From: Bacteroidales bacterium
Lineage (GTDB): Bacteria; Bacteroidota; Bacteroidia; Bacteroidales; JAAUTT01
Reading direction: 5' to 3'
NCBI GenBank assembly: GCA_025361285.1
Contig: JANYAP010000165.1
Location: forward strand, 1-42,289
Length of the DNA: 42,289 nucleotides
Below, piece after piece: positions 7,662 through 14,450 of this stretch; within the stretch, counting starts at the first letter, position 1, and each line of letters starts with the position of its first letter. Below the pieces are notes generated by a model. It saw only the letters and a program-made list of their open reading frames with translations. It was not told the origin of the DNA and made no database searches. Position numbers and translations under genes: made by a program.

Positions 7662-8552
7662 ATGAAGACTAAAGAGAAAATAAGCATAGATGAATTTGAC
7701 GGTAAACGCTTTCAAATTCGACTTGTCGAACCAAAAGACAATAAAAAAGCTGTATTAACTCACTATTTGCACAACATTCACAATGGAGTTTCAAAGCATT
7801 ATAAAAATGACGCTTTGAACGTTCTAAAAGAATATGTTCAATATAAGGAACTAGACGAAAACATCTCACTTGTTGCTGAAGAGGCAATTCAACAACTGCT
7901 TTTTGAAGTTGAAAATGTTCCATTCCCAACACCCAAAAATTATAAATTTCAGTTTATCGACCTTTTTGCAGGTATTGGTGGTTTCCGACTTGCAATGCAA
8001 AACCTTGGAGGAAAGTGTGTATTTACAAGTGAGTGGGACAAAGAAGCACAAAAAACCTATCGAGCAAATTTTGGGGAAATTCCATTTGGCGACATAACTA
8101 AACCACAAGTGAAAAAATATATTCCAGACAATTTCGATGTTCTATGTGCTGGATTTCCTTGCCAAGCATTTTCAATTGCTGGCAAACGTGGTGGCTTTGA
8201 CGACACAAGAGGAACGTTATTTTTTGACGTTGCAGAAATTATCAAGAAACATAAACCAAAAACGATTTTCCTTGAAAATGTAAAAGGTTTAAGAAGCCAC
8301 GACAAAGGCAAAACACTTGAAACGATTTTAAATGTTTTACGCAACGACCTTGACTACTTCGTTCCCGAACCTCAAATAATAAATGCAAAAGAGTTTGGCG
8401 TTCCGCAAAACAGTGAAAGAATTTGCATTGTTGGTTTCCGCAAGAATTATTTGGGCGTTTCCCTATCGGGTCGGGCTTTGCGTTCCAATCTTTTTGTTCG
8501 TTCCTCACAAAAAGGATTTCCACTTCAATCCCTAACGCAAATCGCAGCATAG
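7662..8552 (+). pseudogene. DNA (cytosine-5) methyltransferase, N-terminal part, interrupted
   Basis: The frame carries the catalytic half of a C5 DNA methyltransferase. It has motif I (FIDLFAGIGGF, residues 98-108), motif IV with the nucleophile (GFPCQAFS, Cys167), motif VI (ENV, 205-207) and motif VIII (QNSERICIVGF, 249-259). A 90-residue N-terminal extension of unknown role precedes motif I. Native sequence ends near residue 261 (nt about 8446). The remaining 35 codons are read through the left inverted repeat of an inserted cassette and end at a TAG. The target-recognition region and motifs IX-X are found 1.1 kb downstream (9610-9998). Without them the enzyme should be unable to recognise or methylate DNA. 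The neighbouring restriction gene points to a former type II system. The codon style (fewer TCG/GCC codons than the flanking core genes) suggests horizontal acquisition. Confidence 0.88.
8447..8541 (+). repeat. Left inverted repeat of the HNH cassette, with internal hairpin
   Basis: It aligns to the reverse complement of 9521-9614 over nearly its whole length with roughly three quarters identity (counted by eye). The best-conserved blocks are CGGGTCGGGCT (8467-8477), CAATCTTTTT and AAAAAGGATTT. Inside it TTTTTGT (8491-8497) pairs with ACAAAAA (8507-8513) around a 9-nt loop. Beyond one bulged G the stem continues AAT/ATT. A second pairing, TTTGCGTT with AACGCAAA, encloses the hairpin. Confidence 0.85.
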
Positions 8553-8558
8553 AAGTTT

Positions 8559-9329
8559 ATGGCAAGAGATAATTGGAATAGAAAACAATTGATTGTAGCG
8601 TTAAATCTTTACTGGAAAATTCCATACAATAAAATTAGCGGTAGTTCCAATTCTGTTATTAAACAAATTGCTCCAATTATTGATAGAACCCCAGCAGCAT
8701 TAGCTTATAAACTAATGAATTTTGCAAGCCTTGATGCTGAAAAACAAAAAATTGGAAACAAAGGGAAAAGTGCTGCAAGTTCATCAGATAAAGAAATTTG
8801 GAATGAATATTTGGGGCAGTGGGAAAAACTGGCATTTGATAGTTCCGTTATTCTCTCTACTATTCAAAATAAGCCATTTGAAGCAACAATAGAATTTGAG
8901 CCTGAATTAAAATTTGCTGAAGGAAAAGAAAAAGAAAGAATTGTAAAAACACGAATTAACCAAAATGATTTCCGTCAAAGAATTTTAGCATCATATAATG
9001 AAAAGTGCTGCATTACGGGTATTTCGATAACTTCTTTATTAGTTGCAAGTCACATCATTCCGTGGTCAAAAAATGTCCAAGAAAGACTAAATCCTAAAAA
9101 TGGTATTTGTTTAAATAACATCCACGATAAGGCATTTGATAAGGGTTTGATTACGATAACAAATGATTTTAAAGTAAAACTTTCTAATGCTATATTGGAA
9201 AAGAGAAAGGAAAAAAACATTCAGAAATATTTTATTGAATATGAAAATCAACCAATAATTCTACCAGACAGATTTAGTCCTTCAGTTGATTTTTTAGAAT
9301 ACCACCATCAAAATATTTTTAATAAATGA
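8559..9329 (+). CDS. HNH endonuclease (HNH_2 type)
   Basis: The 256-residue protein has a C-terminal HNH nuclease domain of the kind grouped as HNH_2 (PF13391). Visible elements are EKCCITG (residues 148-154), VASHIIPW with His165, RLNPKNGICLN with Asn178/Asn181 (176-186), and IHDKAFDKG with His189 (188-196). All expected metal-binding and catalytic positions are present, so the nuclease looks intact. The N-terminal 60 residues (DNWNRKQLIVALNLYWKIPYNKI) form a conserved-looking module of unknown function that could bind DNA. Such proteins are often labelled putative restriction endonucleases, but substrate and role are unproven. The ATG lies 17 bp after the left repeat. The stop overlaps the next ORF (ATGA), implying translational coupling. 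No methyltransferase partner lies inside the cassette. Confidence 0.88.
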   Translation: MARDNWNRKQLIVALNLYWKIPYNKISGSSNSVIKQIAPIIDRTPAALAYKLMNFASLDAEKQKIGNKGKSAASSSDKEIWNEYLGQWEKLAFDSSVILSTIQNKPFEATIEFEPELKFAEGKEKERIVKTRINQNDFRQRILASYNEKCCITGISITSLLVASHIIPWSKNVQERLNPKNGICLNNIHDKAFDKGLITITNDFKVKLSNAILEKRKEKNIQKYFIEYENQPIILPDRFSPSVDFLEYHHQNIFNK

Positions 9330-9529
9330 AACATTCAATCAAAATAATTTTCGGCAAAGAACAAGTGAACAAATTTTTGTCAGAAACTCCTTTTTCTGAG
9401 GAGGAAAAAAGCATTAATGAAAAAGAATATCACTTTGAAACCAAATCTGAGTTAGATGCTTTTGTTAAAGGCGTTAGTGAAACTGTTGGATGGTTGGAGT
9501 GCTACATTGTTGAAGGTGCTGCCGTGTGA
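9326..9529 (+). CDS. Small protein of unknown function, coupled to the HNH gene
   Basis: This 67-residue product begins in the ATGA overlap with the HNH gene and ends inside the right inverted repeat. It is acidic, has no signal peptide or membrane segment, and contains YHFETKSELDAFVKGVSETV (about residues 36-55) followed by GWLECYIVE. I do not recognise a characterised family. The tight overlap suggests it is made together with the nuclease, perhaps as an accessory or inhibitor, but that is inference from arrangement only. Confidence 0.6.
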   Translation: MKHSIKIIFGKEQVNKFLSETPFSEEEKSINEKEYHFETKSELDAFVKGVSETVGWLECYIVEGAAV

Positions 9530-9614
9530 GGGATAGAAGCGAAAATCCTTTTTTTCTTTTTCAGAAAAAAAGATTGTAGCGAATAGCCCGACCCGTAGGG
9601 GCACACCCAAAATA
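9521..9614 (-). repeat. Right inverted repeat of the HNH cassette, with internal hairpin
   Basis: This is the inverted partner of 8447-8541; the core AGCCCGACCCG is at 9585-9595. CTTTTTTTCT (9548-9557) pairs perfectly with AGAAAAAAAG (9563-9572) around a 5-nt loop. One bulged C (9547) separates it from an AAT/ATT extension. This is the same architecture as the left copy with different apical bases. Confidence 0.85.
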
Positions 9615-9998
9615 CTTTTTATCAACCCAATATGTGCAATCACTTGTAAAACACAAAGCAAGACACAAGGGAAAGGGAAACGTTTTGGATATGAAATTAT
9701 TCCCGACACAGGCATTGCAAATGCGATTGTCGTAGGTGGTATGGGACGCGAGAGAAATTTAGTATACGACCATAGAATTACAGATTACACTCCTACTACT
9801 CATAATAAAGGTACTGTAAATCGTGAGGGAATTCGTAAAATGACTCCTTTAGAATGGGCGAGACTTCAAGGCTTTCCCGACATATATGTAATTCCTGTTG
9901 CAGACGCTTCAGCTTACAAGCAATTCGGCAATTCTGTTGCCGTGCCAGCAATTCAGGCGACAGCAACAAAAATTTTAGAATTAATTTTAAATAAATGA
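9610..9998 (+). pseudogene. DNA (cytosine-5) methyltransferase, C-terminal part, detached and frameshifted
   Basis: Directly after the right repeat a frame encodes KYFLSTQ and then HKARHKGKGN (to 9681), typical of the target-recognition region of C5 methyltransferases. The following FGYEI, together with motif IX (NREGIRKMTPLEWARLQGFP) and motif X (AYKQFGNSVAVPAI), is in another frame. A single missing base near 9682 (AAC GTTTTGGA where AAC GGTTTTGGA is expected) explains the shift. An internal ATG at 9741 could give an 85-residue peptide with motifs IX-X only. The stop at 9996-9998 overlaps the restriction-endonuclease start, so the original gene pair was translationally coupled. The fragment has no catalytic motifs of its own. 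Confidence 0.85.
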
Positions 9999-10618
9999 AC
10001 AAACTAAATCAATTAGGCATAACCGTAGGAAAAGACAATAAAGCGGAAGTGGTTTTCGACAGCTTATTTCCAAGTTTTATGACTGTGAAATATAAAAAAC
10101 CATCTGACTATATTTTGACATATTGGGAAGCATTTCAAAAACATCCCGAAGGAAATAATAATTTGAATGGAAAAATATTTGAATATATTTTGGCGACTTT
10201 ATTTGTACGTGAAAACATATTGCCTTTGTACATGAGTGCAAAAGTTGCGTTTGTTCCTAATGTAATTTACGACCTAATGTTTTATACTGCAGAACGGGGA
10301 CCAATTTGTATTTCCGCAAAGACAAGTTTGCGTGAACGCTACAAACAAGCAGACCTTGAAGCAATTGCATTGAAATATGTTCATAGGAAGGCATTAAGTT
10401 ATTTAGTTACACTTGAAGCAAACGAAGCAAAAAGTGTAAAAGCAAAAATTAAATGCGGAGACGTTATAGGGCTTGACAATGTAATAGTGGCTACAAATAG
10501 CGACTTCAATGATTTAATTGAAGAATTGAAGACGTTTAAGTTTTCTGAACCGCCTACAGTTAAAGTAATTGAGAGCAATCAAATAATTACCATAGATAAA
10601 GTAAACGCATTAAAGTAA
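9995..10618 (+). CDS. Probable type II restriction endonuclease, PD-(D/E)xK superfamily
   Basis: The 207-residue protein starts within the methyltransferase stop (ATGA), the usual layout of a type II restriction-modification pair. Its centre shows Asp93 (VIYDLMFY), then SAK at 107-109 in PICISAKTSLRERYKQ, and Glu122, exactly 13 residues after Lys109. This D...SxK-x12-E spacing is the displaced-glutamate active site known from the SsoII/EcoRII/NgoMIV/Bse634I group of nucleases, several of which pair with C5 methyltransferases. Glu63 (GKIFEYILATLF) could be the additional acidic residue. No frameshift or internal stop is seen, so the nuclease looks intact despite its broken partner. Assignment rests on context and this motif; recognition sequence unknown. 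It is shorter than SsoII-type enzymes. Confidence 0.7.
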   Translation: MNKLNQLGITVGKDNKAEVVFDSLFPSFMTVKYKKPSDYILTYWEAFQKHPEGNNNLNGKIFEYILATLFVRENILPLYMSAKVAFVPNVIYDLMFYTAERGPICISAKTSLRERYKQADLEAIALKYVHRKALSYLVTLEANEAKSVKAKIKCGDVIGLDNVIVATNSDFNDLIEELKTFKFSEPPTVKVIESNQIITIDKVNALK

Positions 10619-14335: not shown

Positions 14336-14343
14336 TACTTTTG
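14336..14343 (+). promoter_or_regulatory. -7 promoter element of the SRP RNA gene
   Basis: TACTTTTG matches the Bacteroidota -7 consensus TAnnTTTG exactly. It lies 4 bp before the predicted RNA 5' end, close to the spacing expected for transcription start. A TTTG at 14308-14311 is 24 bp upstream, slightly far for a -33 box. Confidence 0.7.
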
Positions 14344-14347
14344 CGGC

Positions 14348-14443
14348 GGGTAAGTCTTATACGACCAGCTCCTATTTAACTCCCCCAGATTCGGAAGAAA
14401 GCAAGGGTAAATGGTTGAGCGGTGCGATGTAAGTAGCTTACCC
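14348..14443 (+). ncRNA. ffs: Signal recognition particle RNA, bacterial small (4.5S) type
   Basis: About 96 nt form the single long hairpin typical of bacterial SRP RNA. The ends pair (GGGTAAG at 14348-14354 with CTTACCC at 14437-14443). The apical part carries the conserved Ffh-binding core: TTCGGAAGAAAGCAAGGGTA (about 14390-14409), where GGAA forms the tetraloop and AGCA the asymmetric loop. The RNA scaffolds Ffh and FtsY for co-translational protein targeting. A consensus -7 element lies just upstream and a T-run (14446-14450) follows the closing stem, consistent with termination. Ends are estimated from pairing. Confidence 0.88.
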
Positions 14444-14450
14444 ACTTTTT

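Follow-up and report, generated by a model that had tools for sequence, protein, structure and literature searches.

The window, that is, the whole stretch of 42,289 nucleotides of a Bacteroidales contig (JANYAP010000165.1) analysed here, contains a C5 DNA methyltransferase (MTase) gene that is interrupted by an HNH endonuclease gene and a small overlapping gene. Closely related MTases exist as empty alleles, six filled alleles share the same left junction and vary in the right one, and the histories of the HNH gene and of the MTase conflict. On balance, it seems probable that the insert is a restriction-type HNH module which homologous recombination passes from one restriction locus to another, giving a homing-like pattern, and is not a repeat-ended transposon.

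Organization of the interrupted methyltransferase locus

The initial annotation had described an HNH gene and a coupled 67-codon open reading frame (ORF) lying between inverted repeats inside a C5 MTase gene, with no transposase. ORF analysis, Pfam searches and alignment of the repeats agreed with this arrangement (Table 1), and no transposase ORF was found inside the insert.

Table 1. Features of the interrupted locus (positions in the window).
Feature	Position	Strand	Basis
N-terminal half of C5 MTase	7662..8552	+	motifs through VIII; Pfam DNA_methylase profile 1-165 of 324, E 1.1e-69; ORF
Left Flavo-1 element	8450..8538	-	Rfam match 8465-8543, RF01705, 57.5 bits; edges by sequence comparison
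HNH endonuclease gene, 256 aa, HNH_2	8559..9329	+	Pfam PF13391, E 8.4e-13; PADLOC HNH PDLC04132, E 1.7e-89
Small gene, 67 aa	9326..9529	+	ORF; 4-nt overlap with the HNH gene
Right Flavo-1 element	9528..9611	+	Rfam match 9516-9597, RF01705, 71.5 bits; edges by sequence comparison
C-terminal MTase remnant	9612..9998	+	distal TRD, motifs IX-X; Pfam DNA_methylase 228-323 of 324; ORF; frames
207-aa gene after the MTase	9995..10618	+	ORF; conserved behind the MTase in uninterrupted alleles

The reading frame of the N-terminal half follows MTase sequence up to about position 8444-8449; its remaining tail is read from the left repeat, which overlaps the end of the truncated frame. Motif VIII reads QNSER in the window and QNRER in loci L031, L032, L047, L048, L049 and L052. 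The C-terminal half contains an in-frame stop codon and a 1-nt frameshift, with an open ORF downstream (9741-9998). In L031, which carries a related insert, the frame of the C-terminal half is open from a TTG codon located inside the right Flavo-1 element.

Between the window and L031, dN/dS (NG86) was about 0.05 for the N-terminal half of the MTase, 0.09 for the C-terminal half (after the frameshift), 0.03 for the 207-aa gene, about 0.06 for the HNH gene and 0.11 for the small gene. The low values of both MTase halves indicate that they were maintained until recently, and that of the HNH gene indicates that it is maintained by purifying selection.

The 207-aa protein is encoded behind an intact MTase in L032, L039, L040, L044 and L057, with 85-96% identity. 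At the thresholds applied, it matched no Pfam, NCBIfam or PADLOC family, and the best PDB match had an E-value of 0.06. It is probably the cognate restriction enzyme of the MTase and a candidate for an uncatalogued enzyme of this kind. Further downstream, positions 14341-14447 hold a Bacteroidales-type small SRP RNA (RF04183, 92.1 bits).

The HNH protein belongs to the HNH_2 family, with 48.4 bits for PF13391 against a curated cut-off of 21. The NF045808 model aligned with residues 113-254 only and remained under its cut-off (63.7 bits against 180). Pfam recognised no modification-sensor domain. The AlphaFold model had a mean pLDDT of 60.2, with most of the HNH half below 50, and was used solely for noting three helices near the N-terminus, within the better-predicted half; Foldseek with this low-confidence model gave no match at E <0.001. 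Scans of IMG/VR with the HNH protein and with the N-terminal half of the MTase confirmed no viral relative.

The 67-aa protein, for which no Pfam match was found, terminates where the right repeat begins on its inner side. Homologues occur in L031, L049, L215, L216 and L225, and longer ones are located near HNH genes in other genomes. Two homologues of approximately 155 aa follow HNH genes in L227 (4945-5433) and L228 (3565-4032), the latter starting directly at the HNH stop codon.

Empty and filled alleles of the methyltransferase gene

Contigs of GTDB genomes were scanned with the N-terminal half of the MTase, which yielded 56 confirmed loci. The gene runs through the junction uninterrupted in 49 of these and contains an HNH gene in four (L031, L048, L049 and L079); the remaining three could not be judged (L059, whose contig ends before the junction, L084 and L086). 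The unit is therefore an insert and related MTases have empty sites, as the initial annotation had supposed. Two further filled cases were found outside the 56 loci, L152 through a pattern for Flavo-1 ends and L231 through the HNH protein alone.

The left junction is common to the window, L031, L048, L049, L152 and L231: within 3 nt, at a position just after motif VIII, the MTase gives way to a Flavo-1-type element and the HNH gene follows, with one extra small ORF in between in the case of L048.

The two MTase halves had been thought to resume cleanly at the repeat edges, which was not confirmed. When L031 was compared with the uninterrupted allele L032, to which it is 96.5% identical in the left flank and 87% in the right, 88-92 nt of MTase sequence were absent and no target-site duplication was seen; the window copy has, in addition, the stop codon and frameshift described above. 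Comparison of L048 with L052 (92-93% identity in both flanks) showed the replacement of 606 bp, which comprised the C-terminal half of the MTase and the beginning of an HpaII-like gene. In L049 the sequence picks up again at residue 77 of the 207-aa gene, and in L231 at residue 97 of an HpaII-like protein. The resumption points of L031, L048, L049 and L231 differ, and only the window and L031 agree; the right joint is thus variable and the left one constant. Two fixed junctions, as looked for under homing, were not found.

The unequal similarity of L031 to the two flanks of L032 makes it a mosaic, so that the change can be read in either direction, and L032 may have been filled once and have lost its insert. 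The contig of L031 is filed under Limnohabitans, a betaproteobacterium, yet its restriction-modification (R-M) locus is Bacteroidota-like, which probably reflects a binning error or a recent transfer.

Repeated arrival of the module

The DNA tree of the MTase N-terminal half comprised 51 rows; L076, L078, L080, L081, L082, L084, L085 and L086 were omitted, and L231 is absent from this tree and from the HNH tree. The seven filled rows require seven changes, at least five of which are forced by supported branches; L059 was labelled empty in this tree and the count is the same without its label. A single MTase clade of the window, L031, L048 and L049, which have close HNH genes, was rejected (p-AU 1.35e-33). 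A clade of the window and L031 was less strongly rejected (p 0.016) and one of L048 and L049 was not rejected (p 0.09).

Divergence at synonymous sites gave conflicting orders for the two genes: dS between L048 and L049 was 0.27 in the N-terminal half of the MTase and 1.15 in the HNH gene, and between L031 and L049 it was 1.20 and 0.65, respectively. The informative sites for the four-way split were distributed 75:2:3 in the MTase and 9:13:11 in the HNH gene (p 1.6e-12).

In L049, a locus of Flavobacterium alvei HR-AY, the MTase sequence next to the insert differs from the rest of the gene half. Compared with L052, 80 of the 100 bp immediately preceding the insert are identical, versus 645 of the other 683 bp (p 7e-6), and every other 100-bp stretch of the gene half is more similar. 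Comparisons that do not involve L049, namely L048 with L052 and three among uninterrupted alleles, showed no drop in this stretch (96, 93, 91 and 89 of 100). The foreign stretch is closest (89%) to L071 and L085. Judged from its sequence, the tract matches the footprint that import by recombination within the MTase would leave. No such tract was seen in the left flanks of L048 and L031, so that one of the three flanks tested was positive.

The conflicting histories and the foreign tract of L049 indicate that the module arrived repeatedly, through MTase sequence. The unit is thus mobile in effect, as originally proposed, having been gained several times at the same point of diverged MTases.

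We propose that an HNH_2-family module of restriction type, consisting of the HNH gene and its overlapping small partner, moves from one R-M locus to another when the conserved N-terminal halves of their MTase genes recombine as homologous sequences. Recombination is the suggested carrier because of the shared left junctions, the conflicting histories and the donor tract of one allele. The joint formed by the MTase N-terminal half, Flavo-1 and the HNH gene would be imported as one block and the right end would fall wherever the exchange resolves; the import would break the MTase and often the restriction gene too.

The same observations bear on active homing, in which the HNH enzyme would cut intact MTase alleles close to the junction at motif VIII, and repair of the double-strand break would copy the module in, disabling the MTase. 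The shared left junction in six alleles, the scatter of filled alleles on the MTase tree among empty ones, the different histories of insert and host gene and the 100-bp donor tract in L049 are all compatible with this process, and they resemble the pattern of free-standing HNH homing endonuclease genes. These genes differ from the present family in that the right end here is not fixed and the target gene is broken. With its right junctions variable, and in view of the genomic settings of related HNH genes described below, homing is in our opinion unlikely.

An extended version, a gene drive by which a free-standing HNH gene targets R-M loci, is rather unlikely. In this version the enzyme would cut intact alleles of one C5 MTase family by motif VIII, its gene would be copied in together with a Flavo-1 hairpin needed at the left end, and it would dismantle the R-M system and install itself as a new defence gene.

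Flavo-1 repeats at the ends of the insert

The inverted repeats are complementary over 54 nt at 74% and over 28 nt at 86%. Both score above the Rfam gathering score for Flavo-1 (42 bits) and are members of RF01705 by this threshold; their occurrence as inverted repeats is therefore not due to chance. Flavo-1 has been presented as a candidate RNA motif without known function (PMC2864571, PMC9723704), and one of these two descriptions mentions matches lying sense or antisense to transcribed regions. The window differs from this general picture in that its inverted pair brackets an inserted module. In the window genome (3.2 Mb), with 150 of 432 first-look candidates scored, the only Flavo-1 matches found were the two of the insert.

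The left element of the window is identical at 87 of 89 positions to that of L031 and at 84 of 89 to that of L049, far above the four-fold degenerate sites of the HNH gene (36 of 59 and 32 of 56, respectively). This conservation suggests, from the alignments, that the element has a function, and it may serve as a leader or terminator. The left element exceeds the Rfam threshold in the window, L031, L048 and L049; those of L152 (36.1 bits, E 1e-4) and L231 (29.1 bits, E 0.009) fall short of it. Of the six same-site copies, just two, the window and L031, yielded a right element; one of the other four, L152, has a truncated insert.

Elsewhere, Flavo-1 is dispersed. At E up to 0.001, it occurred in at least 17 of 198 genomes of the order and at least 57 of 395 genomes of the phylum, 11 and 46 of which, respectively, were over the cut-off; strict filters make these values lower bounds. 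Up to 106 matches were found in a single genome and most copies had no neighbour inside 5 kb. Four genomes with at least 217 matches in total, also lower bounds because at most 150 candidates were scored per genome, contained 16 adjacent pairs within 5 kb. Inverted minus-plus pairs numbered 4 in G476, compared with 0.66 expected from random placement, and 1 versus 0.39 in G403; no excess was seen in G526 (3 versus 3.34) or G254 (0 versus 0.32).

The genes located between 11 of 15 inverted pairs were read (all but L127, L128, L130 and L131). Several appeared to be housekeeping genes, such as trpA and argD, and others could not be assigned a role; the names trpA, argD, era, der and hsd are our interpretation of translations and not search results. 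In one genome of the same order as the window (G015), an inverted pair surrounds an apparent type I R-M operon of 6.2 kb (L118, G015:C4:365000-374000) and another surrounds a 407-aa gene without assigned role (L116, G015:C3:69000-74500).

L031 likewise has a Flavo-1 pair around its HNH gene. Flavo-1 pairs were rejected as general cassette ends on account of the apparent housekeeping genes between several of them and of the mostly unpaired copies.

It had also been suggested that the cassette is moved by a host factor acting on its structured ends; a REP-type Y1 transposase acting in trans would be one candidate. Flavo-1 at both ends in the window and L031, the strong conservation of the left end, Y1 matches in seven of the eight genomes tested, the window's included, and the inverted pairs above random in G476 agree with such movement. 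Against it, the right end was not found in four of six copies, the right junction varies, about 90 nt were lost in place of a target duplication, and Flavo-1 is mostly unpaired, with several inverted pairs enclosing genes interpreted as trpA, argD and others. Two ends in every copy and a target-site duplication, the marks of an inverted-repeat transposon, were not observed. No Flavo-1 was present in the 18 Y1 transposase loci scanned out of 21, and G015, with 17 Flavo-1 matches, gave none for Y1; Y1 transposase was accordingly rejected as the mover. Movement in trans by these ends is very improbable.

Under the recombination model, Flavo-1 would be a dispersed hairpin repeat carried at the left joint and not a pair of transposon ends, probably retained for its hairpin as leader or terminator. 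The strength of its conservation suggests a point against this model, which explains it only loosely.

HNH relatives in restriction neighbourhoods

Relatives of the HNH gene occurred in 39 of 395 genomes sampled from the phylum, the window's own included, and in 17 of 376 genomes sampled from the order of G403. Genes for Vsr, C5 MTase or HpaII-like proteins were located within 2.5 kb in 11 of 41 HNH loci, compared with 1 of 87 control loci, and the sole positive control locus (L152) itself carries an HNH gene; by this test, the other 30 HNH loci had no such gene nearby. The loci had been found by HNH alone, and the controls were of similar total length, about 1.5 kb on each side. The test covered 41 of 48 distinct genomes other than the window's own (omitting G198, G254, G388, G444, G506, G509 and G548), with wide flanks in 28 loci (about 4 kb where the contig allowed) and about 1.5 kb or less in 13. 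L229, with Vsr residues 1-31, fell below the threshold and was not counted. The commonest Pfam family among the neighbours was C5 methylase, in 6 of 74 proteins scanned, chosen from 98 listed from 28 loci.

HNH relatives were also found at other points of MTases, at residue 163 in L162 and residue 195 in L079, and in restriction loci with no Flavo-1 match (L079, L162 and L166). On the HNH tree, the MTase-inserted genes, together with those of L164, L166 and L167, form a single supported group that takes up 10 of the 40 rows. In L162 (5326-6738), a Neisseria gonorrhoeae record filed as a plasmid, the region lies between pheS and pheT by translation; a Vsr gene is located upstream, the MTase is cut at about residue 163, and a 96-aa ORF and an HNH gene 42% identical to that of the window follow, so that remains of a C5 R-M locus are present in another phylum. 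In L164 (3913-5715), the unverified phage scaffold MT837792.1, an HNH homologue (35%) lies directly upstream of an open C5 MTase frame.

HNH_2 (PF13391) nucleases are reported from C5-MTase/Vsr/paraMORC restriction neighbourhoods (PMC8011034, PMC2292703). The window HNH has the same Pfam domain, and the companions Vsr, C5 MTase, GHKL ATPase and Response_reg_2 are found around some of its relatives; the window module differs in lying inside the MTase gene, breaking it, and recurring at one point. The positions at other MTase points or near open MTases, and the restriction association of the family (PMC8011034), are the further arguments against homing.

The broken neighbours allow another reading, conflict-driven replacement: a methylation-dependent HNH enzyme would attack DNA modified by this MTase and settle only where the MTase is broken. 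In its favour, HNH genes lie in broken MTase, Vsr or HpaII-type loci with several break points (L079, L162, L195, L228, L230 and L231), and a sequence comparison of the HNH domain with the PDB gave 6yex as the best match (E 1.3e-12), which we take to be VcaM4I. However, at least three further C5 MTases in the window genome are free of stops, related HNH genes lie near open C5 MTases in L196, L197 and L211, and no sensor domain was recognised. Strict incompatibility of the HNH gene with any C5 MTase was ruled out by such coexistence.

A parallel exists in the solitary methylation-dependent HNH enzyme R.PcaRCII, which conflicts with a Dcm-like MTase (PMC8989522). The C-terminal half of PcaRCII contains the HNH domain and its N-terminal part is predicted to form a three-helix bundle; it is silenced by methylation and has no MTase gene in the vicinity. 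The likeness, by description, is to the three N-terminal helices of our low-confidence model; the window HNH differs in being placed within an MTase gene. Taken together, conflict-driven replacement appears quite improbable. Homing and incompatibility with methylation by the MTase are nevertheless two live rivals to passive recombination, which we hold to be the most likely mechanism.

Comparison with split methyltransferases and significance

The two-subunit C5 methyltransferase M.AquI is described as divided in the variable region that follows motif VIII (PMC3404938), at about the place of the window insertion. It differs from the window, in which the C-terminal half is frameshifted and the two subunits are not both open. 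Given the position of the M.AquI split and the open C-terminal half of L031, a working split MTase is conceivable in L031 and not in the window.

No account of an HNH module inserted in an MTase gene was found in the literature searched, judged on titles and abstract openings. The present loci show that a nuclease module has repeatedly cost restriction loci their MTase, each time at the same point of the gene. Filled alleles have close empty relatives, which makes them suited to direct comparison of cleavage and transfer, and Flavo-1, a motif without known role, gains a concrete natural setting.
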